Origin: Lentisphaeria bacterium
GTDB taxonomy: Bacteria; Verrucomicrobiota; Lentisphaeria; Victivallales; UBA1829
Direction of reading: 5' to 3'
DNA: 45,715 nucleotides
Assembly (NCBI GenBank): GCA_017503545.1
Contig: JAFVSW010000222.1
Location: forward strand, 1-45,715
Part shown: in pieces, positions 6,041 to 22,236 of the stretch
Numbering within the stretch: position 1 is the stretch's first letter
Layout: each line of letters opens with the position of its first letter
The notes under the pieces: model-generated
The model's database searches: none
Told to the model about the DNA's origin: nothing
Seen by the model: the letters and a program-made list of their open reading frames with translations, nothing else
Translations under genes and position numbers: made by a program

Positions 6041-6125
6041 GTATTTTTTGAAGAAACATAGATTTTTTTTTTGAAAAAATAATCCGGATTGCATGTTTTC
6101 CGGAAAAAACAGAAGGTTTTTTAGA

Positions 6126-6866
6126 ATGTACGGGTTAGATTTTATGCCGGTTTTAGCGCAAAGCGCAATGAGTTATGCGTTCTCTAATTCTGATTTGATG
6201 GGACAGACGATCTGCGTAGTCCTCTTTTTCTTCTCCATCGCAGTCTGGGTCGTCATGCTGGAAAAAATTATTACTCTCAAAAATGTAAAGAAAGATACCA
6301 ATCATTTTGCCGCCGCTTTCGCCCGCCGGCGCGATCCCCTCCAATTGAAAGATCAGGCGGATCAGGATAACAGCCCCGCCGCCCGCGTATTTCAGGCGGC
6401 ATGTGACCGGATCGAAGCATTTCACCTGCGGGAACAGCCCGGCGGACCGCGCCGCGCATTGAGCGATGATGAAATCCAAATCGTAAAAGCCACCATGAGC
6501 CAATGCGTGGAAGAACAGATCCTGCTCCTGGAAAAACGCATGATGTTCCTGGCAACAGCCGTCAGTGCCAGTCCGTTCCTCGGATTGTTCGGTACAGTCT
6601 GGGGGATCACTCTGGCATTTACCAATCTTGCCATTCAGGGCCGTGCGGATATTCAAACATTGGCACCCGGGGTCTCCGGAGCGTTGCTGACAACGGTCAT
6701 TGCTCTGTTTGTTGCCATTCCGTCTCTGGTTGGATACAATATCATTGCGAACAGCATCAAAGATATTACGGTCCGGCTGGATAATTTTTCTGAAAATGTA
6801 GCAGCCAGATTGAAGATCGAACAGATGGAAAGCATTCAGGCATACGAAAAACGGAACCGGGAATAA
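6126..6866 (+). CDS. exbB: ExbB/TolQ proton-channel protein
   Basis: This 246-aa inner-membrane protein of the MotA/TolQ/ExbB family has three predicted membrane helices: one near residues 25-50, then two after a long cytoplasmic loop. The conserved LGLFGTVWGI and LLTTVIALFVAIPSLVGYN segments carry the Thr residues lining the proton path. With ExbD it uses the proton motive force to drive TonB. The ATG at 6126 has AGAAGG about 9 nt upstream, whereas an earlier in-frame ATG (6093) lacks one. ExbD follows after 6 bp and TonB overlaps ExbD, so this is a complete energy-transduction operon. Confidence 0.92.
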   Translation: MYGLDFMPVLAQSAMSYAFSNSDLMGQTICVVLFFFSIAVWVVMLEKIITLKNVKKDTNHFAAAFARRRDPLQLKDQADQDNSPAARVFQAACDRIEAFHLREQPGGPRRALSDDEIQIVKATMSQCVEEQILLLEKRMMFLATAVSASPFLGLFGTVWGITLAFTNLAIQGRADIQTLAPGVSGALLTTVIALFVAIPSLVGYNIIANSIKDITVRLDNFSENVAARLKIEQMESIQAYEKRNRE

Positions 6867-6872
6867 GTAATC

Positions 6873-7280
6873 ATGGCAAGACGTAATTTCCCGAGATCCA
6901 CATTCGATTCCATCAACGTGACACCGTTGATTGATACCCTGTTCTTTCTGCTGATCATTTTTATGGTCACTGCTCCATTGCTGGAATATACGGTGGAAGT
7001 CTCTCCCCCGCAAATGAATGCGGACCCCATGAAGCCGGATGAAGATTCCAAAATCGTCAATGTCAAAGCAAATGGCGATATCATTTTTGAACGCCGGGTC
7101 GTCACCGGACAGGAACTGGTACGTCTGCTTGCGGAAATCCCCAAAACCGGGAATCCAAAACCCGTTTTCCTCCGCGCAGATGGTGACCTCAAATTCAAAA
7201 ATGTCATTCATGTGATGAAATTGATCCGGGAAGGCGGATATCCTAACGTATTGTTCGTGACGGAGGAAGAACCGAAATGA
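6873..7280 (+). CDS. exbD: ExbD/TolR energy-transduction protein
   Basis: This 135-aa protein has a short cytoplasmic N-terminus, a single membrane helix INVTPLIDTLFFLLIIFMVT and a periplasmic domain. The transmembrane Asp (D21), which is essential for proton relay in ExbD/TolR, is present. This contrasts with the second ExbD-like gene at 36773. It sits between exbB and tonB, and its stop codon overlaps the tonB start (ATGATG). Confidence 0.93.
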   Translation: MARRNFPRSTFDSINVTPLIDTLFFLLIIFMVTAPLLEYTVEVSPPQMNADPMKPDEDSKIVNVKANGDIIFERRVVTGQELVRLLAEIPKTGNPKPVFLRADGDLKFKNVIHVMKLIREGGYPNVLFVTEEEPK

Positions 7281-8185
7281 TGCCGCAATTTTCGCCCGGT
7301 GAACTCGCCGCAAGCGGGCGTGACCCATACGAAAACTCTGGACGTTTTACCAGGATTGCAATTTTTGTTGTTATCCTGCACATCGCGCTGTTTGTCGTCC
7401 CCTGGATTTGGTTCACCTTTTTGAAACCGCAGGAAAATAAGGTATTCGTCATGCGCGCCGCTCTTGCCGAAATGCCCAAAGGCAATTCTCCGGAAGTTCC
7501 ACCGGCAATTCCCGGGAAGAAACCAGTTCCGGACCTTCCGGAGATCCCGGAGATCCCGGAGATTCCGGCGCAAAAACTCCCGGAACTTCCGGAAAAACCG
7601 CGTCCGGTGCCGCCGAAACAAAAACCGGCAGTAAAACCAAAACCCATTCCCGCACCAAAGAAAACGCCGGTAAAACCAAAAACAAAACCGGAGAAAAAGA
7701 AAAAATATCTTTCTGCGGAAGATATCCGGAAATCCATTCCGAAACAAAGAAATAATCCGCAGAGCAGAGAGTCCGCAAGACAACGGCAGCGTGCGGAAAA
7801 AGAAGCCGCACGGATTGCTGCGGAACGACGCCGGATACTGGACGAAACGGCAAAAACCCTGGAGAAAAAATTCGGGTCTCCTGCTGGAGGGCAGAAAGGT
7901 GTTCCTGCGACAAAAGAATTCTACGGTTATCTTGACCGATTGACCGCCATGCTGTATCAGCAATGGAATCAGCCGACAAGTACAGCATTGAAAAAACGCG
8001 GTATTTTTGTACTTGTCACCTTGCAAATTGCGGCAGACGGAACAGTGCAGACAAAAAATTTCAAACCGTCAGGCAATGCCATTATGGATCAATCAGTACA
8101 ACAATTATTGCAAAAATTACGTGCCGTTCCGCCGCCGCCCGGTGGTCAAATGACGATTCCGGTAAAATTGGTCGTAAGTGAATAA
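7277..8185 (+). CDS. tonB: TonB-family energy transducer
   Basis: This 302-aa protein has a cytoplasmic tail, one membrane anchor near residues 27-47 (IAIFVVILHIALFVVPWIWF) and a long Pro/Lys-rich periplasmic spacer of about 75-140 that includes PEIPEIPEIP. A charged Arg/Lys/Ala helix follows, then a TonB/TolA C-terminal domain of about 90 residues (GIFVLVTLQIAADGTVQTKN and a final TIPVKLVVSE strand). It would span the periplasm and energise outer-membrane receptors. The charged helix makes a TolA-like function possible, but no tolB or pal is adjacent. The DNA of the spacer carries three near-perfect 9-bp repeats (ggagatccc type) around 7541-7567. Confidence 0.88.
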   Translation: MMPQFSPGELAASGRDPYENSGRFTRIAIFVVILHIALFVVPWIWFTFLKPQENKVFVMRAALAEMPKGNSPEVPPAIPGKKPVPDLPEIPEIPEIPAQKLPELPEKPRPVPPKQKPAVKPKPIPAPKKTPVKPKTKPEKKKKYLSAEDIRKSIPKQRNNPQSRESARQRQRAEKEAARIAAERRRILDETAKTLEKKFGSPAGGQKGVPATKEFYGYLDRLTAMLYQQWNQPTSTALKKRGIFVLVTLQIAADGTVQTKNFKPSGNAIMDQSVQQLLQKLRAVPPPPGGQMTIPVKLVVSE

Positions 8186-8195
8186 AGGACAGATC

Positions 8196-9308
8196 ATGGA
8201 GCATTATTACGAAAAATATTACAAACACCATGCACCGTCAGCCAATGCGCTGCTGCACCGGACAACGGACCGGATCGCTTCCATAAAAATCCCTCTGGGC
8301 AGTAAACATCCTGATCCGGAACCGATCCTTGCGCTGCTGCATGATGCCGGATTCAACGGTGTCCTGCTGAATTGTATCACACCCGGCGGAAAACTCGTAC
8401 TGGACCCTGCCGGTTTCCTTGCGCTTTTTGCAGAAACCGCAAACAAATATTCCATACAATGCGGATTGGATATCCCCTGTGCATTTCCCGGAAAAACAAA
8501 TCGTACCCAGCAGACTTTCCGTAAACAATTGCGCTCTCTGCTTTCCTCCGGCATTTCTTTCTTTGAAATCCGTTTGAATAATACAGAACAAATGGGGCAG
8601 CCGGAATGGGATCCGCTTTTCAGCATGATCCGGCAAATGCAGCCTGATGCCGTGATTTCCGGCGGTCCGGATCGACGCAGAAGCAATCCCGGCGGCAGCC
8701 TTCCGCCTCTCTCCAGCAGTCGCTACACGCCCCGGAATTGTTTTCTCAACGGAGAAGCGCCGAATAATCCGAAATCCATTGAACGGCATTATGCGTTGGG
8801 CAATCCTTTCAACGGGCTGTATTATCTGCAGCCGGAATGTGATATTCCCCTTCCCCCGACTCCGGAACAACTGGTGGAAGCATATATGAATTCCGCAGGA
8901 AACGGCGGAATCATGAATGTCAGGATCCCCATGGATGATCATGGCATGTTCTCCACGGAAACGGAAGAACTTTTCCGGTCATTCGCCCGCCGTCTCAATG
9001 CCTTGCAGAGCCGGGAGATCCTTTCCTGGTATCTGAATGACGGGGATCAATTGCTGGAACTTTACCCGGGTTCGTTCGATTTGATCGACTTGAGCGAAGA
9101 TATGTCCTCCGGAGAACGGGTACGTGCCTGGAAAATCGAAGGTAAAACCGCAGATCAATGGCAAACACTGGCGGAAGGGACCATCATCGGTTTCCGCCGT
9201 CTCCGTCTTCTTCCGGAACCATGCCGCTGTACTCTGCTCCGGTTGACGGTGACCGGCGGCGGCGCAGAATTGAAACTTTATTCCAAGGTACATGATCATG
9301 AACAATAA
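8196..9308 (+). CDS. Degenerate alpha-L-fucosidase-like (GH29-related) protein, probably not catalytic
   Basis: This protein of about 370 aa follows the layout of GH29 fucosidases by eye. It has MEHYYEKYYKHH at the start, MQPDAVISGGPD near 148-160, EQLVEAYMNSAGNGGIMNVR in the middle, and a C-terminal beta domain beginning FDLIDLSEDMSSGERVRAWKIEG. Where active GH29 enzymes have the nucleophile Asp in a WFDG-type motif, this protein reads EIRLNN, putting Asn128 at that place. The N-terminal HWG segment is also missing, and it has no signal peptide. It is therefore likely a pseudo-enzyme or a carbohydrate-binding remnant. It lies 10 bp after tonB and overlaps the methyltransferase gene by 11 bp. 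The start at 8196 has AAAGGA upstream. Confidence 0.6.
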   Translation: MEHYYEKYYKHHAPSANALLHRTTDRIASIKIPLGSKHPDPEPILALLHDAGFNGVLLNCITPGGKLVLDPAGFLALFAETANKYSIQCGLDIPCAFPGKTNRTQQTFRKQLRSLLSSGISFFEIRLNNTEQMGQPEWDPLFSMIRQMQPDAVISGGPDRRRSNPGGSLPPLSSSRYTPRNCFLNGEAPNNPKSIERHYALGNPFNGLYYLQPECDIPLPPTPEQLVEAYMNSAGNGGIMNVRIPMDDHGMFSTETEELFRSFARRLNALQSREILSWYLNDGDQLLELYPGSFDLIDLSEDMSSGERVRAWKIEGKTADQWQTLAEGTIIGFRRLRLLPEPCRCTLLRLTVTGGGAELKLYSKVHDHEQ

Positions 9309-10512
9309 CCCTCCCGAAATAAAACGGATCGCCATCCGTGTAAAACGTAAAGCCGTTGCCGCAATCCGCCAGGGACATCCCTGGTTGTTTGCCGATTCCG
9401 TGGAACGGTATTCCAAAGACCCTGCCCCCGGTGATGTGGCAATTTTATTTGATCCCGACGGCAAAATGCTCGGTGCGGGGTTGTGTGACCCGAAATCGGT
9501 GGTACGTGTCCGTATTCTTGCGCATAAGAACGGGGAACCGCCGGTGGGACCGGAATTATTTGCGAAACTGATCCGCGAAGCAGCAGAACGCAGAGCAGGA
9601 AAAATCTCTGACGATACCACAGGCTGGCGTTTGATTCATGGAGAATCGGATGGTTTTTCCGGATTGGTGGCAGATAAATATGATGATACGCTGGTATTGA
9701 AATTGTATTCCGAAGCCTTTGTCATTCACGTTCCTGCGATTATTGATGCCATACAGAAAGAATACCCGGAAATCAAAAATACAGTGATTCGCCTTTCACG
9801 GGAATTGAGCCGCATCGTAACAACATATCAGGATGGCGATGTGATCCCGCCGACTGCACCCGTACTGAAAACATTTCTGGAAAACGGAATCCGTTTTCAG
9901 GCAGATTTGAAAACGGGTCAGAAAACCGGATTTTTCCTGGATCAGCGGGAAAACCGGCAGCGTCTGGAACGTCTTTCCGCCAACAAAGATGTATTGAATG
10001 TGTTCTGTTTCTCCGGTGGATTTTCTCTCTATGCCGCACGGGGCGGAGCCAATACAGTGACCGGGATCGATTTTGATAAACATGCCATTGCCGCCTGTGA
10101 AAAACATTTTGAAATGAACAAAAATATCCCGGCGATCCGCCGTTGCCGTCATACCGGTATTTGCGGAGATGCGTTTGAAGCAATGCGGGATCTGGCACAC
10201 AAACGGCGACTGTTTGATATTGTGATTGTGGATCCGCCCTCGTTTGCAAAATCTTCCGGTGAAAAAGATACGGCATTGAAAAGTTATACCGCATTCGAAA
10301 AACTGGCGGTCCGTCTGCTGAAAAAGAACGGAATCCTGGTATTCGCCTCCTGTTCCAGCCGGGTCACCGCCGATGATCTGTTTCCGGAAATCCTCCGGTC
10401 CGCCGGTGACTGCCTGGATGTGTTTGACAAAACATATCATGCCGCCGATCACCCCGCCGCATTTGCGGAATCCTCTTATCTGAAATGCCTCTGGGCAAGG
10501 AAAATCAAATGA
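9298..10512 (+). CDS. Class I SAM-dependent rRNA methyltransferase, RlmI-like
   Basis: This protein of about 404 aa has an N-terminal PUA-like RNA-binding domain (AIRQGHPWLFADSVER), a linking region with IHGESDGFSGLVADKY, and a Rossmann methyltransferase domain. SAM motif I is NVFCFSGGFSLYAARGGA; the catalytic motif DPPSFAKS and a later ASCSS complete the pattern. RlmI makes m5C1962 in 23S rRNA; the RlmK/RlmL-type relatives are less likely because the PUA domain is present. The ATG at 9298 has AAGG 9 nt upstream and is preferred to that at 9292. Its stop overlaps the mutY start (ATGA). Confidence 0.88.
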   Translation: MNNNPPEIKRIAIRVKRKAVAAIRQGHPWLFADSVERYSKDPAPGDVAILFDPDGKMLGAGLCDPKSVVRVRILAHKNGEPPVGPELFAKLIREAAERRAGKISDDTTGWRLIHGESDGFSGLVADKYDDTLVLKLYSEAFVIHVPAIIDAIQKEYPEIKNTVIRLSRELSRIVTTYQDGDVIPPTAPVLKTFLENGIRFQADLKTGQKTGFFLDQRENRQRLERLSANKDVLNVFCFSGGFSLYAARGGANTVTGIDFDKHAIAACEKHFEMNKNIPAIRRCRHTGICGDAFEAMRDLAHKRRLFDIVIVDPPSFAKSSGEKDTALKSYTAFEKLAVRLLKKNGILVFASCSSRVTADDLFPEILRSAGDCLDVFDKTYHAADHPAAFAESSYLKCLWARKIK

Positions 10513-11534
10513 CCTTGCAGGATCTTGACCGTCTGCCGGAATTGCTTCTGCCCTGGTATCAGGACAACAAACGGGATCTGCCCTGGCGGGAAATCCCGGC
10601 GGAACCATATCATGTCTGGCTCTCTGAAATCATGCTCCAGCAAACCCGCGTGGAAGCCGTCATCCCCTATTACCACCGTTTTCTGGAAGCATTGCCGGAT
10701 ATCCCCGCGCTTGCTGCCGCGGATGATGAAACAATTTTGAAATTATGGGAAGGCCTGGGCTATTATACCCGTGTCCGCAATCTCCGTGCCGCTGCACAAA
10801 AAATCATGGAGGATCACAACGGGATTTTCCCCTCATCCATAACCGGAATACGTGCGCTGCCGGGTATCGGAGATTATACCGCAGGCGCAATAGCCTCGAT
10901 TGCATTCGGACAATGTGAACCGGCAGTGGACGGCAATGTTTTGCGCGTGATCACACGGTTTGCCGGGGCAATGGATGATATTACAAAAAATTCAGTCAAA
11001 CAGCAGATCGCCGATGGATTACGGAGCATTTATCCATCTGGAGATCCATCCGGTTTCACACAAAGTCTTATGGAATTGGGTGCGTTGATCTGTCTTCCAA
11101 ACGGCACCCCGAAATGCGCGGAATGTCCGTTGCAGAACGCCTGCTCCGCACACCGGAACAAACTGACCGATCTGATCCCGGTCAAAAAGCCGAAGAAACC
11201 GCGGAAAGAAGAAAAACACACCATCCTGATTCTGTCTTCAAAAGGAAAAATTGCGTTGCGGAAACGCCCCGAAAAAGGATTGCTCGCCTCCCTCTGGGAA
11301 TTTCCATCTCTGCCCGGACATCTTACCAAAGATCAAGTATCACAACACTATCCGGCATGCCGTCACTGGCAGCGCGGACCGGAAGCCGTTCACATCTTTT
11401 CCCATATTGAATGGCACATGCACTCCTTTACAGCAGAAAGTCCGGAGGAACTGGAAGGACTCCAATATTTCTCTCCGGACCAATTTCCTGCGGTACCATC
11501 CGCATTCAAAGCATTTCTGCCGCTTAAAAAGTAA
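10509..11534 (+). CDS. mutY: Adenine DNA glycosylase MutY
   Basis: This 341-aa base-excision repair enzyme removes adenine mispaired with 8-oxoguanine. It has the catalytic glutamate in LSEIMLQQT (E40), a helix-hairpin-helix GIRALPGIGDYTAGAIA (113-129), the catalytic Asp141 in AVDGNVLRV, and four iron-sulfur cysteines at 195, 203, 206 and 212. There are seven residues between the first two cysteines, one more than in the E. coli enzyme. A NUDIX-like C-terminal domain follows (ILILSSKGKIALRKRP, LWEFPSLPG) and recognises 8-oxoG. The start overlaps the upstream stop and has AAGGA at 8-9 nt. Its 3' end overlaps the convergent GH30 gene by 11 bp. Confidence 0.93.
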   Translation: MTLQDLDRLPELLLPWYQDNKRDLPWREIPAEPYHVWLSEIMLQQTRVEAVIPYYHRFLEALPDIPALAAADDETILKLWEGLGYYTRVRNLRAAAQKIMEDHNGIFPSSITGIRALPGIGDYTAGAIASIAFGQCEPAVDGNVLRVITRFAGAMDDITKNSVKQQIADGLRSIYPSGDPSGFTQSLMELGALICLPNGTPKCAECPLQNACSAHRNKLTDLIPVKKPKKPRKEEKHTILILSSKGKIALRKRPEKGLLASLWEFPSLPGHLTKDQVSQHYPACRHWQRGPEAVHIFSHIEWHMHSFTAESPEELEGLQYFSPDQFPAVPSAFKAFLPLKK

Positions 11535-12852
11535 TCGTCACAATCGCTTTCGGACGCAACAGAACCCGTAAATATTCTCCGTTCAATTTGAATTGAACCG
11601 ATGCCGGGATCACGGCGGAATTGCTCATAACTGCCACATAACTGTTATCCGGATTCCGGAATATCACACAGGTAATGTTTGACGGCAGATCTTTGTTTGT
11701 ATAACAATGCAGCAATGCCGCACCGCGTTTCACATACGGCGCAAAATGTTTGAATACATGATACTGGACGCTGGGCGTGATTTCCCCGGTACGGGAATGG
11801 ATCTCCACCAGTCCGGCACATTCAAAATCACCCGTATTGGGCTGACCGTTTTCATCCAGCGCACAATTCCATCCGATAAATGACGCACAGCCGTTATTCA
11901 ATGCACCACTGATGGTCTTTGCCCACCATAACGGTTCCTGTTCCGCAGAATTCGGCTTGATGTTCGGACCTTTTTCCGTCAACTGGAACGGTAATCCGGG
12001 GTGTGCTTCCCGTACCTGGCGGATCATTTCCGGACAACCGCAATAGGGATGCCATGCCACAGCATCCACATGTTTTTTGACTTCCGGATCAGAGAGCATG
12101 TACATGACCCGTTTCCAGTTGTTATAATTGTGGTCGTAAAGCCAGATTTTTGTATTCAATCCGGCGGCAGTCAACCGGGGCGGCATCAAATAACCGCAGA
12201 GTTCCATTTCAAAATCGGGGTGGAGACGACTCTGGGGCATTCTGCCGATCTGATCGGTATCCACTTCGTTCTGCATGGTGATGGCATCAATGGGCAATCC
12301 GTGTTCCCGATAGGCTTTCAGATATTCCACATAATAATTGGCAAAGGCGGGCAGATATTTCTGACGCATTTCACCGCCGCACATTTCACCGCCGGTCTTC
12401 ATCCAGCCGGGAGGGCTCCACGGACTTGCCATCATAAAGAGATCATCCCGGAGGGCTTTGACTTCTTTTGCAACGGGGATGACATACGCTTCATCGTGTT
12501 CGATGGAGAAATGTTTCATTTCAATATCATCCGGCACATCGTTATAAGAATATACTTCAGTGGAGTAATCGCTGGAACCTACATTCATACGGACGATGGA
12601 AAGATTCAAGCCATCCGGAGAGAAAATATTCCGGAGCCATTCCGCCCGCCGGTCTTCCTCCAGCCGGGACAGCAAATAACAGGAGGCTTCGGTCAGGGAT
12701 ACACCGAATCCAAGCATGGTGTGGGAGACTTCTGCCGTATCCAGATCGAAACACGTTGCATCATAATAAAAATGGCGGCTGAACGGTTGATTTTCTGCCG
12801 GATATGCAACTCCGTTTGCATCTGTAACCAATGTTTTGAGTCGTTCGCTCAT
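11524..12852 (-). CDS. GH30-family glycoside hydrolase
   Basis: This 442-aa clan GH-A hydrolase has GFGVSLTEASCYLL at 48-61, ASPWSPPGWMKT at 142-153, the acid/base in TMQNE (E196) and the nucleophile in QLTEKG (E293), followed by a small beta domain. GH30 enzymes cleave beta-glucosyl, beta-xylosyl, beta-fucosyl or glucuronoyl-xylan linkages; the substrate is not evident here. There is no signal peptide, so it probably works on imported oligosaccharides or is exported in another way. It is the last gene of the GntR-led operon, 15 bp after the GH106-like gene, with AAGGAAAGG before the start. Confidence 0.85.
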   Translation of the reverse strand: MSERLKTLVTDANGVAYPAENQPFSRHFYYDATCFDLDTAEVSHTMLGFGVSLTEASCYLLSRLEEDRRAEWLRNIFSPDGLNLSIVRMNVGSSDYSTEVYSYNDVPDDIEMKHFSIEHDEAYVIPVAKEVKALRDDLFMMASPWSPPGWMKTGGEMCGGEMRQKYLPAFANYYVEYLKAYREHGLPIDAITMQNEVDTDQIGRMPQSRLHPDFEMELCGYLMPPRLTAAGLNTKIWLYDHNYNNWKRVMYMLSDPEVKKHVDAVAWHPYCGCPEMIRQVREAHPGLPFQLTEKGPNIKPNSAEQEPLWWAKTISGALNNGCASFIGWNCALDENGQPNTGDFECAGLVEIHSRTGEITPSVQYHVFKHFAPYVKRGAALLHCYTNKDLPSNITCVIFRNPDNSYVAVMSNSAVIPASVQFKLNGEYLRVLLRPKAIVTITF

Positions 12853-12867
12853 CTTCTTTTCCTTTCC

Positions 12868-15800
12868 TTATTTTATGAGACAAAGTTCCGGTGCTGTAAG
12901 CAGTCCGCATGGCACAAGTTGACGTATCGGTGAAATTGTTTCTTTGAATACTCCGGGTCCGGTCCATGCCGGCCAGGCTTCCGCCCCGTAAAACGGACCG
13001 AGTGCATTTCTGCGGCTGCCGTAAACTGTGATCTTCAATTGGATTTCTCCGGCAGGCAATTCCACACGGTAAGGCGGCCACGGCAGCAATTGTTCTTCGC
13101 CATCATTGATGGTGACACCCAGCAGAACGCCGCGCCATTTTGCGAATTCAAGCACTCTGCCGCCGTCTGGAACTTGAACCGTCCGGGAATAAGTGATATT
13201 TCCGGCATAATTGGGCAATCCCTGTTCCGTCCAGGAACCGGTCATCAACTGTTTCGGCAAGGTGACAAGGGTGTCATTCATGACTCCGAAATCACCAAGC
13301 AGGAACATGGCTTCCAATCCGGGCAGTTTTTCGTGATATTTACTGCGGAGTGACAAGGTATTTCTGCCTTTCTGAAGCAGAGTACAGGGGATATTGATAC
13401 ATTGGAAAGAACGGTCGATCCACCAGCAGATCACTTCATTTTTCAATACCGTACCGTTGAGCAGGATCTGATAAAATTCCGGATGTTCCAATGCCAATTG
13501 ACAATCTTTTGCCGGGACATCTTTGATTTGGAAATTATAAGTCAATTCCAAATCCAGCATTTTTTCCGGCGGAGTATGATCCCGCAACCAGGGCTGAATC
13601 ATATCACCGGCACGGTGACGCTGCTGCAGCATATCCCGTAATTGATTGTCAATGGAAAGAATATACTGTTCTTTTCCGCCGAATACGCCATCTGCACGCC
13701 AGTTGGCTTTATCCAGGACAAGTACGTTATCTTCATCCAACTGATAATCCCAGCCGTTACGGGGGAGTTTTTCCCGTTTTTCAACCGCTGCAGGAACCGG
13801 TTTTACTTCCGCAGAAAGGTTTTCTTCCGTAATAACATACAAATGAGATTCCCAATAATTGAACGACGTTTGCAGCACATATGCACCATTCGTATATTCC
13901 GCCGGAACAACGTAAATTTTTCCGGTCAGCGCATCAAGTTCGTACACGTTGCCGCGCTGCGGTACATGGATGGCAACTTGTGCATATGCAAAAGTCTGAG
14001 ATCGTTCCCGCACCATTTTTTCATCACGGGGCTCGGAGGAGAAATTCTTGCCGTAATTGCAAAGAAATACCGTATACGATTTCCCCGTATCGGCAAGACG
14101 CGCCAGAATCGGCGGAATCTGTTTGCCGCCGGCATCTGCCACGGAAACACGGCGTACTGACGGACTCAAAAGCGATACGGCTTCGGCAAGCGTTGCCTGT
14201 TTGAATTTCTTATAAATCTTTGCCGGAATGTCAGAAAGAGCACCATCCAGATACGCCGGAATATCACCCAGATACAAGACCGTGCCGCCCGCTTTTACAA
14301 AAGCAGCAAGCAGATCCAATGTCGTCTGACGGATCGTATCCAGTTCCGGAATCAATACTGCCCGGTAGGATGCCTTATTGACTTGCAGCGTTGTTTTATT
14401 CACCGCACCATAGCGGGAAAGGATTTCTTCTTCCCCGAAATCAAAGTCCAGTTTCTGCGCCAGCAGCGTATTGGTAATGGATACAAATTGTTTATCCAGA
14501 ACTTTCAGACCGCGATCTTCCCGGAACAGATCAAAACGCATCCATGCAGATTCAATCGGGTGAATGACCAGCAGTTCACGGATTTCTTCCCCTTCCGAAA
14601 GAATTGCGCCGAGACGGGCAAAATAATCTTCCACCAGCGGATATTTTTTATACCAGGATGACTGATAGGAAATACTGGCGGGATAGTCCCGTTTTGCTTC
14701 CGCTTCCGCAGAATACCAGGCAAGATGCTGACACCGTACATTGATCCCGAGCGCATATTGCAAATCGCCCAATGCTTTGTGACCGAAGAAGGGGAAATCC
14801 CACCCGGTACAGCCGTAGGTTTCGGAAAGACGCCATTTCTTCCCGAACTGACGTGCCATGGAGGTACATTGTTTGATCGTATTGAAAATACACCAGTGTT
14901 CCGTCAGAAAGTCGATCCCGGGCATTTGCATGTATTCATAAAAACGCATGGGCGAGCCGACTTCGTTGACCGCAAGAGCCAAGGCATCTTCTTCAAAAAT
15001 GTGACCGGTCATTGCCAGTCCGTTTTCATCACACCATTCTCCGATCGTACGGGCAAAAGCCTGCACAAAATATTCGGTGATGATATTGTAAAAACGATGG
15101 CGCGCCGTGGAAACTTTTTTCACTGACGCAAAGAAGATCTCCGGCAGATAATCCGTGATATCCTCCCCGTACAATTCTTTGTAACGGGCGGGAATGGCAT
15201 CGGTCCAGGATAAACTGTGCGCCGGGCCGGAATGCCAGAAACTGGGTTCATCACTGAAAATCGCTTTGACTGATTTGCCGAATTCGTCCCCAACTTCTTT
15301 CCGGTATGTTTCGTGTGTCGTTTCCACAAACTTTTTCACCGCATCCGGATTCAATGTATCCAGATAAGTCGCACCGTTGAACCAGGTACTTGAGGGACCG
15401 AGTACACGGGCAAAACGCAGCAATTTTCTGCTGCCGCGGGGCGAAAACTGTTCCGGATGTGCCTCTTTGCGGACTTGACGGACAATCGGATGTTCTTTTT
15501 CTCCGGTAACGGACGCCGTAAACCAGGCAAGGGTCTCGCCGCCCGCAGTGGATTCATCAACATTGTTCAGAATCTCGTAAACCAGGAAACGCATTTTGTA
15601 TTGGTCATCCCGGGTAACGAAAGACCCGGCACCGCCGGATGGCCAGCGGTCTTCATCATAAAGATTGGCAATCAAGCCGAGTTTTTTTGCTTCATCCACA
15701 CAAGCATGAATACAGCGGAACCATTCCTTGCTCAGATATTCCGTATTGAGTCCGATACGGGCGTGCATATAAAACCCGCCGAACCCCATTTCCTTGAAAA

Positions 15801-15912
15801 TACGGATCTGTCTGACCAGTTCCTCCGGGTCCAGTTTTGCATTCCACGCCCAGAATGGCGCACCGCGGAATTCCGCACCGGGATTTTTGAAATTAGCAAG
15901 CATCTGTTTCAT
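12868..15912 (-). CDS. Large GH106-like glycoside hydrolase (rhamnosidase-related)
   Basis: This 1014-aa protein begins FKNPGAEFRGAPFWAWNAKL, with MGFGGFYMHARIGL and YDEDRWPSGGAG soon after. That is the pattern of the large GH106-like TIM-barrel proteins related to alpha-L-rhamnosidases and common in Bacteroidetes and Lentisphaerota. A middle region resembles a class-I-glutamine-amidotransferase-like subdomain (VLIPELDTIRQTTLDLLAAF), and the last about 250 residues form beta-sandwich domains ending AGEIQLKITVYGSRRNALGP. There is no signal peptide. Family membership rests on remembered motif style, so the activity is uncertain. It lies in the operon between the secreted protein of 15925 and GH30, 12 and 15 bp away. 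Confidence 0.7.
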   Translation of the reverse strand: MKQMLANFKNPGAEFRGAPFWAWNAKLDPEELVRQIRIFKEMGFGGFYMHARIGLNTEYLSKEWFRCIHACVDEAKKLGLIANLYDEDRWPSGGAGSFVTRDDQYKMRFLVYEILNNVDESTAGGETLAWFTASVTGEKEHPIVRQVRKEAHPEQFSPRGSRKLLRFARVLGPSSTWFNGATYLDTLNPDAVKKFVETTHETYRKEVGDEFGKSVKAIFSDEPSFWHSGPAHSLSWTDAIPARYKELYGEDITDYLPEIFFASVKKVSTARHRFYNIITEYFVQAFARTIGEWCDENGLAMTGHIFEEDALALAVNEVGSPMRFYEYMQMPGIDFLTEHWCIFNTIKQCTSMARQFGKKWRLSETYGCTGWDFPFFGHKALGDLQYALGINVRCQHLAWYSAEAEAKRDYPASISYQSSWYKKYPLVEDYFARLGAILSEGEEIRELLVIHPIESAWMRFDLFREDRGLKVLDKQFVSITNTLLAQKLDFDFGEEEILSRYGAVNKTTLQVNKASYRAVLIPELDTIRQTTLDLLAAFVKAGGTVLYLGDIPAYLDGALSDIPAKIYKKFKQATLAEAVSLLSPSVRRVSVADAGGKQIPPILARLADTGKSYTVFLCNYGKNFSSEPRDEKMVRERSQTFAYAQVAIHVPQRGNVYELDALTGKIYVVPAEYTNGAYVLQTSFNYWESHLYVITEENLSAEVKPVPAAVEKREKLPRNGWDYQLDEDNVLVLDKANWRADGVFGGKEQYILSIDNQLRDMLQQRHRAGDMIQPWLRDHTPPEKMLDLELTYNFQIKDVPAKDCQLALEHPEFYQILLNGTVLKNEVICWWIDRSFQCINIPCTLLQKGRNTLSLRSKYHEKLPGLEAMFLLGDFGVMNDTLVTLPKQLMTGSWTEQGLPNYAGNITYSRTVQVPDGGRVLEFAKWRGVLLGVTINDGEEQLLPWPPYRVELPAGEIQLKITVYGSRRNALGPFYGAEAWPAWTGPGVFKETISPIRQLVPCGLLTAPELCLIK

Positions 15913-15924
15913 AAAAGACCTTTA

Positions 15925-16809
15925 TCAGCGAAGGGTGAATTGTGCTTTATCTGCTTTCAGTTTTTTTGCTAAATCGGCATTGGAAACCCGGGTGGTCGGC
16001 TGCCACAAACCAAAACGGAATTCTTTGAAATCTTTTTTCAGTTTGAGACGCAGAGTGGTCGTCCATTCATCACGCAGGTACAAATCCGCCTTTGCCACAC
16101 CTGTATGATCCAATATGATCATAACCGGGCCTTCCCCTTTATCCGCTGCAGAACCATCGTATTTTTTATCCTGAAGCACCAGACTGGTATCCGCCGGTGT
16201 CAGAACGTATGCCTGTTGTCTCTGCGTCAATGTCCGCGCCGGAGTAATCGCCATACGTTCATATCCTTTGCTCCAAATATTCTTTTTATTGGCATTTTTT
16301 GCAAGCATGGAAACCAATGCAGCAAATTGAATCTCTGCTGTTTCCACGTCCTCCACACTGTCCTTGGCAGGGCGGATACTGCCCCACAGGACCGGGGAAT
16401 CTTCCCGCATATACAACCGGAGAATGAATTTGGCTCCATCAAAATTCATTTTCAGTTCACATCCGGCGGATGTGCCTTCTTTCCACAAAGTCATATCAGA
16501 GTCTTTGGGGGTAAGGTCAGCATAACTGATCCCATTGACGGTCATACGGAAAAAGTTGACCAATGCGGAAAATCCGAATTTCGGAGCGGCAAGCCAATAT
16601 TGTGTACGTGGTGCAGTGGTTCCCATCGGTTTGGATTGGACAACGGTAAAAGTATAACGGTTCATGCCATTGAAAATATCGGTTTTCTGTGCAAAAGCAT
16701 AACGTTCCGGTTTGTAAACCACTGCTTTACTTTTTGTGGATGAGGCAGGAACGGCAGCAGAAAGCATAACTGCCGCACAGCTCAATGCAAGTACAAGCGT
16801 TTTTTTCAT
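15925..16809 (-). CDS. Secreted protein of unknown function in the glycan operon
   Basis: This 294-aa protein has a clear signal peptide (MKKTLVLALSCAAVMLSAAVPA). The mature part is rich in beta-strand-like segments, for example YWLAAPKFGFSALVNFFRM, FILRLYMREDSPVLWGSI and TTLRLKLKKDFKEFRFGLW, with few cysteines. I do not recognise the family. Strand-rich character and placement 22 bp after the PHP gene and 12 bp before the GH106-like gene suggest a periplasmic glycan-binding or processing accessory, which is inference. GAGGAA precedes the start at good spacing. Confidence 0.6.
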   Translation of the reverse strand: MKKTLVLALSCAAVMLSAAVPASSTKSKAVVYKPERYAFAQKTDIFNGMNRYTFTVVQSKPMGTTAPRTQYWLAAPKFGFSALVNFFRMTVNGISYADLTPKDSDMTLWKEGTSAGCELKMNFDGAKFILRLYMREDSPVLWGSIRPAKDSVEDVETAEIQFAALVSMLAKNANKKNIWSKGYERMAITPARTLTQRQQAYVLTPADTSLVLQDKKYDGSAADKGEGPVMIILDHTGVAKADLYLRDEWTTTLRLKLKKDFKEFRFGLWQPTTRVSNADLAKKLKADKAQFTLR

Positions 16810-16831
16810 GATTCAAATTCCTCGTTGTTGA

Positions 16832-18592
16832 TTATTGAAAATAGAACGGAGTCGTTGCAGCAATCCGGCTGTGGGTTCCGCTGCGTTCTTCCGTTGAACC
16901 GGAAATTTCCACACGGAGGAAATGTTTGGCATCCGCAGGAACATTGACTGTATAATCTTTATCCAGACGTGCTGCATCTTCTTTTGCCGCAAGAATCAAT
17001 TTCTCATCGGCATAAATGCGGACTTCCTGAATATTTTCATCAAAAATTGCGGCTGTCACATGAATCTGCATGGCATCCTGTTTTGCAATCGTATCACCGG
17101 GAATTGCTCCATTGCAGGTGATATCCGCTTCTGTAAATCCGCATGCGGCAATGTTGTGTCCTGCTTTGATCGCTGCCACCACACTGTCACGATTCGGTGT
17201 TGCACCATCCGCCAGATAAATAAAGTTGACAGCCGGATTCTGGTACATACGCCGGGTACCGAACAGGTCAACCGAATTCATCATAGTGACTTTACCGCCT
17301 TTCAGCCAGTAAGTTTCCATCGGAGTTCCGGTAAGAGGGCGCAGCGGTTCGATATCAACGGCATCCACGGGATAATCAAACCAGTAAGTCTGCATCTGCG
17401 GGTGTGTTGCCACGGCTGCACCGTTATGATCTTTGATATATTTCAGTGCCTTTTTCAAATAGGCATCCACTTCTTCATCGCCGTAAATACTCTTGGTAAA
17501 TTCCGGGGTGTAAGCATCATGATCCGTACCGACCGCAAGCAGATGATAACCGTTATGTGTCATGGAATCCAGTTTATCTTTCCAGTTGAACGGGTGATAT
17601 TCCTGCCCATCCAGGAACAGAACTTTATCATCGGAATATTCTTCCGGATCCAGTTTTCCTTTGTAACAGGCGGCATCTTTGATTGCCAATGAACAAATAT
17701 CGTATCCCATCTGACGCATCAGGGCATTGATTGTTCCGGGAGCAGAGTCGCAGCCGTACCAATCCAGAGAGTGCATGTGGATACAGAGTTTATAATTTCT
17801 TTTTCCTGCGGGGAGCGAACCTTTTTCCGGGATCGGATCGGTCACACCGGCTTTATGATTTGCAAAATAATGCATCAGGTTCTTCATGTATTTCCGCCAG
17901 AAATCAAGACATTTTTTATTGCTGTCCAATTTCACTTCCGGCACCAGGATCTGGTTGAGGAAATACAAGCCTTTCCCGTGGCGTCCCTGAAGGATCAATG
18001 CACCATCACGCACGCCCGGGTCCATATAAGTGCCGAGAACTTCCCAGTTTTCATCCGCAAGATAACAGCTCAATGCGGCAGTGTGGACCCGTTCCGAAAT
18101 ATCTTCATCCGGTTTGCCGCGGATAATCGTAAAGGAATTGACCTTGATATCCCAGCCGATCATTTCATCCGGTTCGATCTTTTCCGGATAATGGAACAGA
18201 TTTTTACCCTGACCGACTGCCCACGGCTGCATATAAATCATGAAGGAACTGTCTTTGAAATTCGCAAAACTGGCTCCGCCGATCGTGGGGATATAACGGT
18301 GGATCAATTTGGTATTGTTCAGGTGTTCCGGGAGGAAACAGGGTGCCCAACGCATATAATCCTGGTGCATGAACAGGAAGATCCCGCCGCGGCTGACCCA
18401 GTCCTGAATATACAATTCATCATTTTCAATATAGTCGTTGAACCCGTTCTGTTCCACCAGGACCACATCATATTTTTCCAGATAATTTTTATTGGAGAAG
18501 TCGATCTTCTCAATATCGTATCCTTCTTCTTCGAGAAATTCTGTAAAGTTCCAATGAGGTCTTGACCAATGTTCAAAATAACCGATTTTCAT
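16832..18592 (-). CDS. GATase-like/PHP-domain fusion protein
   Basis: This 586-aa cytoplasmic protein has two parts. Residues 1-245 resemble the class-I glutamine-amidotransferase-like (ThuA or beta-galactosidase-trimerisation) fold: YFEHWSRPHWNFTEFLEEEG, YDVVLVEQNGFNDYI, WVSRGGIFLFMHQ. Residues 265-490 carry a PHP-type metal-centre pattern: HMHS (H272/H274), DGQEYHP (about 329-334), GTDHD (H358) and ATHPQ (H397). A beta-rich tail of about 85 residues follows. PHP domains hydrolyse phosphoesters with bound metals, but many members in sugar loci have unknown substrates. It is the third gene of the operon, 35 bp after the DUF4838 gene, with AGGAG before the start. The fusion itself is what deserves attention. 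Confidence 0.65.
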   Translation of the reverse strand: MKIGYFEHWSRPHWNFTEFLEEEGYDIEKIDFSNKNYLEKYDVVLVEQNGFNDYIENDELYIQDWVSRGGIFLFMHQDYMRWAPCFLPEHLNNTKLIHRYIPTIGGASFANFKDSSFMIYMQPWAVGQGKNLFHYPEKIEPDEMIGWDIKVNSFTIIRGKPDEDISERVHTAALSCYLADENWEVLGTYMDPGVRDGALILQGRHGKGLYFLNQILVPEVKLDSNKKCLDFWRKYMKNLMHYFANHKAGVTDPIPEKGSLPAGKRNYKLCIHMHSLDWYGCDSAPGTINALMRQMGYDICSLAIKDAACYKGKLDPEEYSDDKVLFLDGQEYHPFNWKDKLDSMTHNGYHLLAVGTDHDAYTPEFTKSIYGDEEVDAYLKKALKYIKDHNGAAVATHPQMQTYWFDYPVDAVDIEPLRPLTGTPMETYWLKGGKVTMMNSVDLFGTRRMYQNPAVNFIYLADGATPNRDSVVAAIKAGHNIAACGFTEADITCNGAIPGDTIAKQDAMQIHVTAAIFDENIQEVRIYADEKLILAAKEDAARLDKDYTVNVPADAKHFLRVEISGSTEERSGTHSRIAATTPFYFQ

Positions 18593-18627
18593 GTTTTCTT
18601 ACTCCTTTATGTTAAAATCAGTTTCTA

Positions 18628-21135
18628 TTACTCTTTCCCTGCAAATTTGATCAGAGAATAATTGTTCAAATCATGATGACGTCCCAGGTTCATGGCGGAA
18701 GAGGAATACTCGCCCGGCATGGTCTTTTTCGTATGAACCAGATTCATCAGCCAGGATTCATACGCTTTCGGTGCAGAAAGATTCATCGCACTGAACGGAA
18801 GGAAAAATTCCACGGTCCAGCTGTTTTTGCCGATTACACGTTTCAACACATAACCGTTAGGCTGCCATGCGCCGTAAGGCTGCGGAATCGGTGCCAGCGT
18901 ACATTGTTTTTCAATCTGCAAATTACGGGCATCAAATACAAGATGGAAGTATTTCTGCTGTTTTGTACCCGGAGAAAGGAACAGTTCAATGTTGTCATTC
19001 AGCCACAGAGATTTGGTTTCCACGTCCGGATAATACGGCATGTGCAAATATCCGTAAATTCCTTTCTTATCCCAGGCAAGGCGTACATCGGCAGGAGATT
19101 TGAATTGTTTGCCGGAGCCAAGCGGACAGATCATTTTCACCGTCTTTGCTTTTTTCCAGGCTGCATCCATTTTCCCGTCAATCACAATTTTATCTTTTCT
19201 GGTCAACTGGTATACATCATGCACAGAACGTTCAAAAGAGTGACGGTTCCGTGTCCCGTTGAAGGCTGCCGGCCACAGTTTTTTCAGCAATGCAAAATGT
19301 TTTTTCGCCGTGGCATCTCCCGCAGGAAGATCTTTTTCCGCCTGATTCAGACAGGCTTCCATTTGATTGACTGCGGCAAGAGAGGGCAGAACATCCAGAC
19401 TTTCACTGTTCGCTGTCAAATCCATATAGGACTTCTTCAGCAGCAGGAAGAATTTGACAAGGCTGGTAGCGGATTTTTTCCCGTATAGCCGTTCAAACAT
19501 TTCGGCAATTGCCGCTTCCCCGTTGAAATCCGGATTCCACATATAACGGTACATTACATATTTACCATAGAAATGATGCCAGAAGTCATAAAATCCGCCA
19601 TGATCAAAGAACACCTGATCGCGTTCCTGCAGATTGCCCCATTTCCGGATCGCCAATCCCATCATTTCACCAAGAATGGCTCGGGCATATGTGTTGGTAT
19701 TGTGATTGTATGCCCAGATGGAACGTACCGGGTTGCCTGTGGCATTTTCCCATTCTTTCAAACTGTTGCTGATCCGTTTCCATTCCTTTTCGTTATGGAC
19801 CAGACCCGGAACGCCGCCTTCGCAATAACGCACTTCCACATTCTTACTCAGTTTCCATTTCGGGTCAATGGATGCCTGGCGGATATCATAATATGCCATC
19901 ACTGCCAGTTTTTTACCCGGCAATTCTTTCTGGAGCCGTTTGTCCAGATATTGGAGGAATCTGGCATACACATTGGCAAGCGGGGCATCCCGTCTTTTAT
20001 CCGCTTCTGTAATCAGGTTCAATTTCTTCACCAGCGGGTCAATCTCGATATCCGCGACTGTGATCCGGTGGTCTGTAACACCAAAGGAAATGTACTGGTT
20101 GTTCGCCCAATCCCATCCATCATTGTCTTTGCCGTTGGACTTGTAATATTTCTTGAGAGATTCCACCAGGACATCTGCAAATTCCAAATTCAATACATCG
20201 TAATATGATCCCACGATTTCATGAGGTGCATAATAGAAATTGCCATTGGGAGATTTATAGAAAACAGTATTGAGTTTGTTCTGTTTTGCCATCGCTCTGC
20301 CAAACCGTTTTTCTGCCGGGTCATGACCCCCGAACGGAGGATTCACCTGCCCCATGCGCCAACGGTTGTTCATTTTATTTGCCCATTCAAGGGAAAGATC
20401 GTTGCCCAGATACGGTTTCCAGTCTTCCACACGCCCCGCATTCCGATACGCATTTTTCTTTTTCGGCATCATCGTGCAATTGATAAAGAAAACACCGTTA
20501 CGACCGGGAAGACGCGGATAATCTGAATATGCAAGCGGTTTCACAGTCAAATCTTTGATCTCAGGGTAAAGACAGCCGGTGCCGGGCATGTAATAACGAA
20601 CATCCAGCACACGTTCCATAAAGTCATAAACACCCCATAATGTCCCGCGGATACTGCCTTTTCTGTCAAGGGGATGACGGTTGTAATTTTTATCCAGAGA
20701 GGAATCGGTCCCCGCGATTACGATCCCTTTATCAAAGGAAACAACTTTATATCCTTCCTGCTTGAGTTTTTTCACATCCACATATTTCCGTGATACCGGG
20801 TTATCCCCGATCACGACAACATACGCATATTTTTTCAAGGCTTCCGCATAAAAATCGGAGGTAAAAACTTCCACTTCCTTCCCGGTACTTTTACGGATCG
20901 TAAGCTGCAATTCTTTTACCGCAACGGCAATGCTGCTTTCACGGTTTTTGCGATATTCGCTGTGCATATCGGCAATAATCGCAAATTGCGGCTGACCGTT
21001 CCGGATCAAACGGATGTCTTTGTGAACCGGTGTTTTGTCAAAATCGACCGGTGTCAATGCCGGATTCTTCAGATCATAAGCCCCTGCCGTAAGAGCCAAT
21101 CCCGTCAGAATTGTGAGTAAAAATGTTTTTTTCAT
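18628..21135 (-). CDS. Secreted DUF4838-type protein with C-terminal CBM9-like domain
   Basis: This 835-aa protein carries a signal peptide (MKKTFLLTILTGLALTAGA). An N-terminal alpha-glucuronidase-like alpha/beta domain (about 40-170, with VKELQLTIRKSTGKEVEVF) precedes a DUF4838-like region that starts with RGTLWGVYDFMERVLDVRYY and continues to about residue 540. From about 650 there is a CBM9/DOMON-like beta-sandwich (IVIDGKMDAAWKKAKTVKM, LAWDKKGIYGYLHMPYY, NDNIELFLSPG). The layout fits an exported enzyme or binder acting on plant or host polysaccharide. No activity has been assigned to DUF4838 that I can name safely. It is the second gene of the operon, 27 bp after the regulator. Confidence 0.72.
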   Translation of the reverse strand: MKKTFLLTILTGLALTAGAYDLKNPALTPVDFDKTPVHKDIRLIRNGQPQFAIIADMHSEYRKNRESSIAVAVKELQLTIRKSTGKEVEVFTSDFYAEALKKYAYVVVIGDNPVSRKYVDVKKLKQEGYKVVSFDKGIVIAGTDSSLDKNYNRHPLDRKGSIRGTLWGVYDFMERVLDVRYYMPGTGCLYPEIKDLTVKPLAYSDYPRLPGRNGVFFINCTMMPKKKNAYRNAGRVEDWKPYLGNDLSLEWANKMNNRWRMGQVNPPFGGHDPAEKRFGRAMAKQNKLNTVFYKSPNGNFYYAPHEIVGSYYDVLNLEFADVLVESLKKYYKSNGKDNDGWDWANNQYISFGVTDHRITVADIEIDPLVKKLNLITEADKRRDAPLANVYARFLQYLDKRLQKELPGKKLAVMAYYDIRQASIDPKWKLSKNVEVRYCEGGVPGLVHNEKEWKRISNSLKEWENATGNPVRSIWAYNHNTNTYARAILGEMMGLAIRKWGNLQERDQVFFDHGGFYDFWHHFYGKYVMYRYMWNPDFNGEAAIAEMFERLYGKKSATSLVKFFLLLKKSYMDLTANSESLDVLPSLAAVNQMEACLNQAEKDLPAGDATAKKHFALLKKLWPAAFNGTRNRHSFERSVHDVYQLTRKDKIVIDGKMDAAWKKAKTVKMICPLGSGKQFKSPADVRLAWDKKGIYGYLHMPYYPDVETKSLWLNDNIELFLSPGTKQQKYFHLVFDARNLQIEKQCTLAPIPQPYGAWQPNGYVLKRVIGKNSWTVEFFLPFSAMNLSAPKAYESWLMNLVHTKKTMPGEYSSSAMNLGRHHDLNNYSLIKFAGKE

Positions 21136-21162
21136 TTTTTGCCTCTGATTAAATGGTTATTG

Positions 21163-22236
21163 TTATATTGAGAGTTCATCCTTCATAAATAATCGCGGTT
21201 CCAGTGTCCTGCAGTATGGACGGGTGGGAATACAGGAATCATCACGAATGTAATCCATTGCCAAACGGATACTTTCCAGATAATCAAAGGAAACATGGCA
21301 TACTTTATCACAATGTTCCCATACCCCGGACATGGCAATTTGGAACGGCTGTTCCTTCAGCGGCATCCCGGCTTGCTGTAAATATTGCCGGAAACGGTAA
21401 ACCAATACGGAAGAATCGGAAAGAATCGCCGTTTTGCCGTCGGATAATTCCTGTTTCATTAATGACCGGAATTGATTGAGATCGGTCAATTCGGCAACAC
21501 CATATTCGTTTTCTCTCATAACGACCTTGCCGACTTCCCGGATACCCAGTGACTTCATCATCAATTTCCGCCCTTCATCCCGCAGTAAATAGCTGGGTGA
21601 ATAAAAACGATTTTCCGGATAATCCAGATAAAGATAACGGGTAAAACCTTTCTGTGCCAACGTGGAACACGCCAATGCGCCTGCCATACGGTAATCCGGA
21701 AGAATGGAAACCTCATCCGCCATATCGACTTTGTAATGGGTCAGATGTACAATCTTCATCCCCTTACGCCGCAATTTCTTATACAAAACCGTATTCAACG
21801 GCACCAATGGCGATCCGACCAGCATGACCGCATAAAAATTCTGCTGAGCCGCCAATTCAAGAAAATGTTTTTCCTTTTCCGGATCCTGTTTATCGTTGGA
21901 TGAACAATACGGGGAAACAAACCAGCCTTCATGCAAATATTGATCCCGCAATTCTTCCAACGCTTCCATCCAGCTGTTCCGCAACAGAACGGCACCCACG
22001 ATCTGATTGCCCCGGAATGTTTTGAACGGATTTTCATCTTCCTGAACAAGATAGGTCCCCCTGCCATGTTCCGTGCGGATAATCCCTTCATCCGCCAGAG
22101 TCCGCAACGCATTGGCAACGGTCCCGGCACTGCATTGGAAACGTTCGGCAAAACTGCGGACTCCGGGCAATTTCCGGTTTCCGGCATATTTTCCGTCTGA
22201 AATATCTCTCTTGATACAATCCACAATGTCGATCAT
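21163..22236 (-). CDS. GntR-type regulator with LacI-like sugar-binding domain
   Basis: This 357-aa regulator has an N-terminal GntR winged helix (LPGVRSFAERFQCSAGTVAN then ALRTLADEGIIRTEHGRGTY, residues 23-63). It is followed by a periplasmic-binding-protein-like effector domain of about 280 residues (VGAVLLRNSW; TAILSDSSVLVYRFRQYLQQ). This is the GntR/LacI hybrid common in sugar operons. It heads the operon of five glycan genes on the same strand and most likely represses it until a sugar binds. A near-consensus promoter at 22291-22319 overlaps a dyad and direct repeat at 22267-22289 that could be its own operator. Confidence 0.85.
   Translation of the reverse strand: MIDIVDCIKRDISDGKYAGNRKLPGVRSFAERFQCSAGTVANALRTLADEGIIRTEHGRGTYLVQEDENPFKTFRGNQIVGAVLLRNSWMEALEELRDQYLHEGWFVSPYCSSNDKQDPEKEKHFLELAAQQNFYAVMLVGSPLVPLNTVLYKKLRRKGMKIVHLTHYKVDMADEVSILPDYRMAGALACSTLAQKGFTRYLYLDYPENRFYSPSYLLRDEGRKLMMKSLGIREVGKVVMRENEYGVAELTDLNQFRSLMKQELSDGKTAILSDSSVLVYRFRQYLQQAGMPLKEQPFQIAMSGVWEHCDKVCHVSFDYLESIRLAMDYIRDDSCIPTRPYCRTLEPRLFMKDELSI

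Follow-up and report, generated by a model that had tools for sequence, protein, structure and literature searches.

The window, a stretch of 45,715 nucleotides from a genome of the order containing Victivallis, carries an open reading frame of 370 codons that opens with an ATG at 8196, closes with a stop codon ending at 9308 and contains no internal stops. The frame follows exbB, exbD and tonB and precedes rlmI and mutY (Table 1), with a divergent ROK-family gene upstream of exbB. Successive junctions from exbB through exbD, tonB, the 370-codon gene and rlmI to mutY measure +6, -4, +10, -17 and -28 nt. This spacing, together with the absence of terminator-like sites on the + strand at two of the junctions, suggests that exbB, exbD, tonB, the 370-codon gene, rlmI and mutY are co-transcribed. 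As read from the sequence, the AAGG at 9285-9288 is better placed for an alternative rlmI start at 9298 than for the one at 9292, and this motif and the overlap between the two genes would fit a coupled rlmI start at 9298.

Table 1. Features of the locus, numbered from the first letter of the window
Feature	Coordinates	Strand	Basis or remark
exbB	6093..6866	+	PF01618 4.2e-28
exbD	6873..7280	+	PF02472 7.9e-23
tonB	7277..8185	+	PF13103 1.1e-12
AGGA, Shine-Dalgarno-like	8186..8189	+	At end of tonB region, ATG 6 nt on; read from sequence
GH29-B-derived pseudoenzyme, 370 aa	8196..9308	+	ORF, phmmer, blastp, AF2, Foldseek, VIA-align
His21, kept His of HF motif	8256..8258	+	H in 69/72 relatives
Asn128 (AAT) at nucleophile Asp position	8577..8579	+	L010 alignment, model strand E124-128
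Pro165 (CCC) at acid/base Glu position	8688..8690	+	Alignment; column E in 72/72 relatives
Glu214-Cys215-Asp216, kept ECD motif	8835..8843	+	Relatives: E 72/72, C 69/72, D 72/72
C-terminal beta domain, residues 273-366, family-like constraint	9012..9293	+	Model and conservation
RlmI-type 23S rRNA methyltransferase (rlmI)	9292..10512	+	Pfam / NCBIfam profiles
mutY	10485..11534	+	TIGR01084 1.8e-92, above cut-off

Two further parts of the window merit description. A carbohydrate cluster on the - strand (11524-22236) abuts mutY tail to tail and comprises a GH30 gene (11524-12852) and a GH106-like gene (12868-15912) whose match is confined to positions 268-623 of the 743-position model. It also codes for two proteins that match nothing in Pfam, a DUF4838 protein and a GntR-type regulator. 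This cluster may bear on how a glycosidase gene arrived at 8196-9308. Farther along, 23323-25446 encodes a 707-aa protein in which GreA/GreB domains are found only C-terminally (residues 550-681), behind a long N-terminal extension.

The 370-aa protein descends from GH29-B alpha-fucosidases. Searched against PDB chains with phmmer, it matches 8ayr (7.1e-12), SpGH29 6or4 (4.3e-9), 4zrx (2.4e-8), 3gza (1.8e-7) and 3ues (7.1e-4), and blastp aligns it to a Victivallales GH29-B protein, L010, at E 2e-30. Its AF2 model (pLDDT 80.2, pTM 0.84, a confidence that partly reflects the 72 homologues in the input alignment) consists of alternating strands and helices followed by an all-beta C-terminal part from residue 273. 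Foldseek places 8ayr_B first (9.4e-24), and VIA-align against the PDB yields Z scores of 33.1 to 3gza and 31.4 to SpGH29. Among the structure matches listed, the best 12 lie at Z 27.4-33.1, and the next, which include entries titled GH29A, reach 20.8 at most. These 12 are GH29-B proteins. For SpGH29, this placement is supported by PMC10154630. The GH29-like scaffold and C-terminal beta domain proposed in the initial annotation are thus confirmed by both the phmmer match to 8ayr and the fold. Homology and fold place the protein in GH29-B, while at E<=1 Pfam does not return PF01120 (Alpha_L_fucos) for it, and none of the 15 PF01120 matches in its own genome lies at 8196-9308. Assignment to another family was rejected, the sole Pfam match being Amidohydro_2 (E 0.2) and the sole NCBIfam match having an E of 0.098. 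In a phylogenetic tree, the branch of the query has a length of 2.65 against a median of 0.39; its placement there beside L010 and L141 was set aside, as the program warns of long branches meeting at that point.

Catalytic positions were compared in an alignment (A2) of the query with 72 GH29-B proteins of at most 720 aa, taken from the best 80 of 134 loci, and the counts out of 72 that follow refer to this selection. The nucleophile column is Asp in 72/72 and the acid/base column Glu in 72/72; by a manual count on the alignment to 3ues, the two columns correspond to its residues 172 and 217, the pair to which the title of the double mutant 3uet refers. GH29 enzymes use a conserved Asp nucleophile at that position (PMC10154630), and the acid/base Glu is conserved across GH29-B (PMC11189522). 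A further 34 relatives, drawn from the order and the phylum, were also compared: the Asp is present in 32/32 and the Glu in 30/30 of the sequences covering those columns. The query has Pro165 in place of the acid/base Glu. At the nucleophile, the L010 alignment sets FEMWFDGAN opposite the query's FEIRLNNT and thereby puts Asn128, with which the fourth barrel strand (E124-128) ends in the AF2 model, at this position, whereas A2 shows a gap there. The Asn named by the initial annotation therefore appears in one alignment and not in the other, and the Asp is absent in both. No alignment supports an intact nucleophile elsewhere in the protein.

The losses extend well beyond the two catalytic residues. 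KHHDG, which contains the fucose-binding His pair, is deleted or replaced in the query and present in 71/72 relatives; GWFYH (68-72 of 72) and the glycine-rich loop after the nucleophile (72/72 at conserved columns) are gone, and the Y and W preceding Asp92 (72/72) and the W of RWVGNE (71/72) are missing. PMC6718869 describes the fucose-binding role of the His pair and reports that D230N alone causes a significant loss of activity in human FUCA1. His21, Asp92, Glu214, Cys215 and Asp216 are kept. An HWG region had also been listed as missing, but GH29-B relatives have HF at this point; the query retains the His (H21) and has lost the aromatic, and the motif that is plainly missing is KHHDG. The query is the sole siteless protein among those inspected. 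Four GH29-like members of the set of 34 (L028, L032, L033 and L035) have HC where the fucose-binding pair is otherwise HH and keep the nucleophile Asp, and their substrate may differ.

With these residues lost, the 370-aa protein is predicted to be unable to hydrolyse fucosides. The reading as a pseudo-fucosidase emerges stronger than it was first put, since the nucleophile, the acid/base residue, the His pair and three active-site loops are all gone, and a GH29 profile check with active-site mapping yields no PF01120 match at E<=1, no intact nucleophile elsewhere and no other family. One could instead suppose a changed reaction, in which the polar residues retained at the barrel mouth (His21, Asp92, Glu214 and Asp216) take on a new activity. 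The loops that normally form the binding site are deleted, however, no other family profile matches, and these residues need no new role because active relatives conserve them too; we regard a changed reaction as very unlikely.

The query has no hydrophobic N-terminus, from which a cytoplasmic location is predicted. Judged by simple hydropathy rather than a signal-peptide predictor, a hydrophobic leader is missing from 6/6 Victivallales GH29-B N-termini read (L036, L019, L021, L148, L167 and L169) and present in six Bacteroidota GH29-B members. Because the Victivallales relatives also lack a leader, its absence probably came with the family. The missing signal peptide was thus correctly noted at the outset, but being the usual state in the six relatives it loses weight as a support for the initial reading.

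Region 8196-9308 is not an ordinary pseudogene, given its lack of stops, native codon usage and uneven conservation between domains. Its in-frame codon score is 0.180, compared with 0.074-0.221 for the 17 other window genes, which also set the codon reference, and 1000 random synonymous versions of the gene average -0.273 with a maximum of -0.131. G+C and codon score show no break across the region. When the L010 frame (420 codons) drifts neutrally to 36% identity, at least six stops arise in each of 200 runs, and at 60% identity at least two; a stop-riddled pseudogene is ruled out by the 370 codons without a stop. An intact coding sequence and lost catalytic residues together define the product as a pseudoenzyme.

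Conservation differs markedly along the protein. Over residues 1-135, 136-272 and 273-355, identity among six active relatives averages 0.55, 0.48 and 0.30, against 0.20, 0.31 and 0.25 between the query and these relatives. Of the 16 other rows of the L010 alignment, L007, L008 and L016 were wrong-frame picks with no blastp match and took no part in this comparison. The active-site half of the barrel has thus collapsed, while the beta domain is nearly as near the family as active members are to one another. Where a column is conserved to at least 85%, the query retains 7/7 in the beta domain, a small number of columns, and 40/128 in the barrel (p 0.00045), or 40/92 when gapped columns are removed (p 0.0042). 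Tested against seven relatives one by one, the barrel-versus-beta difference in identity does not reach significance (p 0.31-0.89), and the contrast between domains is visible only relative to the identity among active members.

This unevenness bears on the main and serious rival to a selected pseudoenzyme, namely that a GH29-B gene was caught between tonB and rlmI by rearrangement and is a functionless passenger, its frame held open since interruption by a stop or frameshift would break the translational coupling to rlmI-mutY. Tight and overlapping junctions, the very long branch and the retention of only 40/128 conserved barrel columns are all in line with such a passenger. Frame-keeping alone, however, should not spare the beta domain, and because a decaying passenger should not respect domains, the uneven loss favours a selected pseudoenzyme. 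We consider a passenger possible but doubtful, and the genomic distribution of the gene adds to the points on its side.

An exbB match was present in 35 genomes and an rlmI match in 36, and neighbourhoods were sampled in 20 of each. The ORFs picked at these 20 exbB and 20 rlmI loci give no match to the query at E<=1e-4, and the best neighbouring ORF, at E 0.33, is a tonB. ORF picking took the longest frame, sometimes antisense, and for L100, where the gene chain ended at tonB, the locus rests on the picked-ORF comparison. In several genomes of the same family, ROK and rfaE-like genes neighbour exbB-exbD-tonB; rlmI is found at another place, followed by mutY at 9/20 rlmI loci. In the one further genome of the genus, uvrB comes after tonB. 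A conserved gene slot between tonB and rlmI was not seen at the 20 exbB and 20 rlmI loci, and the conserved exbB-exbD-tonB linkage that would characterise a TonB-system accessory is likewise absent at the 20 exbB loci of the family. The linkage to tonB therefore appears private to this genome, one event in one sampled lineage, as a passenger would have it. The gene order described by the initial annotation as a TonB operon holds for this genome, but it is not found at the 20 exbB and 20 rlmI loci of relatives, and no orthologue lies beside tonB at the 20 exbB loci. With the linkage unseen there, the comparisons lend no backing to the suggestion of TonB-linked sugar sensing; a scaffold or binding role is compatible with the data.

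Two side observations concern other genomes. In genus g9 (L120-L124, L126 and L133), rlmI is immediately preceded by an additional, diverged rlmI-like ORF, with 291 aa in six loci and 409 aa in L133. In-frame TAG codons occur in otherwise well conserved genes, namely rlmI (L053) and exbB (L070/L100) of G024 and a GH29 gene (L022) of G043, and may be sequencing errors, pseudogenes or something else.

No orthologue was found among the inspected protein and profile matches in 137 genomes of the order, which are only site-bearing GH29 proteins or edge fragments; inspection covered all profile-match frames below 480 aa and the longer ones with a locus in the 34-relative set. The 387 genomes of the phylum likewise hold only long GH29 frames at E<=1e-12 and no orthologue, and a scan of genome contigs with the single 370-aa protein returned 11 stretches, none related. 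An orthologue hidden by short length was also rejected, 17/20 short stretches holding at least one intact site motif and 3/20 (L257, L260 and L270) being contig-edge fragments that lack the site region. This absence of orthologues among the inspected matches is again consistent with a passenger. Three short GH29 genes scoring above the PF01120 cut-off (L253 898-1920, L254 1520-2497 and L256 1416-2534) keep the nucleophile Asp (WID/WVD), have KHV for KHH and end where the beta domain would start; they possibly form a compact GH29 branch in the order.

A junction absent in every relative examined, in a genome of 353 contigs with an estimated contamination of 5.57%, could also arise if assembly or binning had joined tonB to an unrelated contig piece. 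Against this, the same-genus genome G029 holds close counterparts of both flanks (exbB 64% and rlmI 59% identical), G+C and codon score run continuously across the gene, and the junctions fall at neat gene ends, making an artefact highly improbable.

We hold, with about even confidence, that the gene product is a GH29-B pseudoenzyme of the cytoplasm, retained because its fold and beta domain serve in binding or as a scaffold. The alpha-fucosidase ancestor would have passed on its (beta/alpha)8 barrel core and C-terminal beta domain, and the loss of the nucleophile, the acid/base residue, the fucose-binding His pair and the active-site loops would have ended fucoside hydrolysis. Through its tight or overlapping junctions, the gene is probably translated within a single unit, with coupling that runs from tonB through it to rlmI. 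A non-catalytic role would then rest on the fold, chiefly on the beta domain and the surface where that domain meets the second half of the barrel, and binding or scaffolding is the likeliest such role; nothing in the comparisons appears to support tying it to TonB specifically. A fuller scenario, in which a fucosidase became a cytoplasmic non-catalytic binder by paring the active-site loops of the barrel and keeping the beta domain, under the exbBD-tonB promoter, with its dose tracking TonB energisation and its translation setting rlmI-mutY output, strikes us as rather unlikely.

Among known systems, the nearest in structure are the GH29-B alpha-1,3/4-L-fucosidases, represented by SpGH29 (6or4) and the enzymes of Bifidobacterium (3ues/3mo4/3uet), Akkermansia (8ayr) and B. 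thetaiotaomicron (3gza), which share the barrel and C-terminal beta domain with the query at Z 27-33. These enzymes hold the Asp nucleophile, the Glu acid/base residue, KHHDG and the active-site loops, whereas the query has none of them. Nearest in sequence among those found are Victivallales GH29-B proteins (L010, L011, L036 and others), with 33-36% identity over residues 137-355. Like the query, they have no hydrophobic N-terminus where read; unlike it, they have a complete catalytic site, an extra C-terminal domain of ~100-150 aa and no visible link to tonB.

Among the matches listed in the open-access literature, no GH29 pseudoenzyme is described. If functional, the protein shows that the beta domain is the part of a fucosidase worth keeping once catalysis is lost, and the sugar-binding role of this domain in GH29 still awaits validation according to PMC10154630. 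If a passenger, it would be a clean case of a dead gene whose frame is kept open by translational coupling. Glycosidase relatives without catalysis include the GH18 chi-lectins. Published reports describe the same for heparanase 2 (PMC12406646) and for the pseudoenzymes of beetle pectin digestion (PMC6549527). All three are eukaryotic and belong to other families, whereas the protein described here is a bacterial member of GH29-B from which the active-site loops have been deleted as well.
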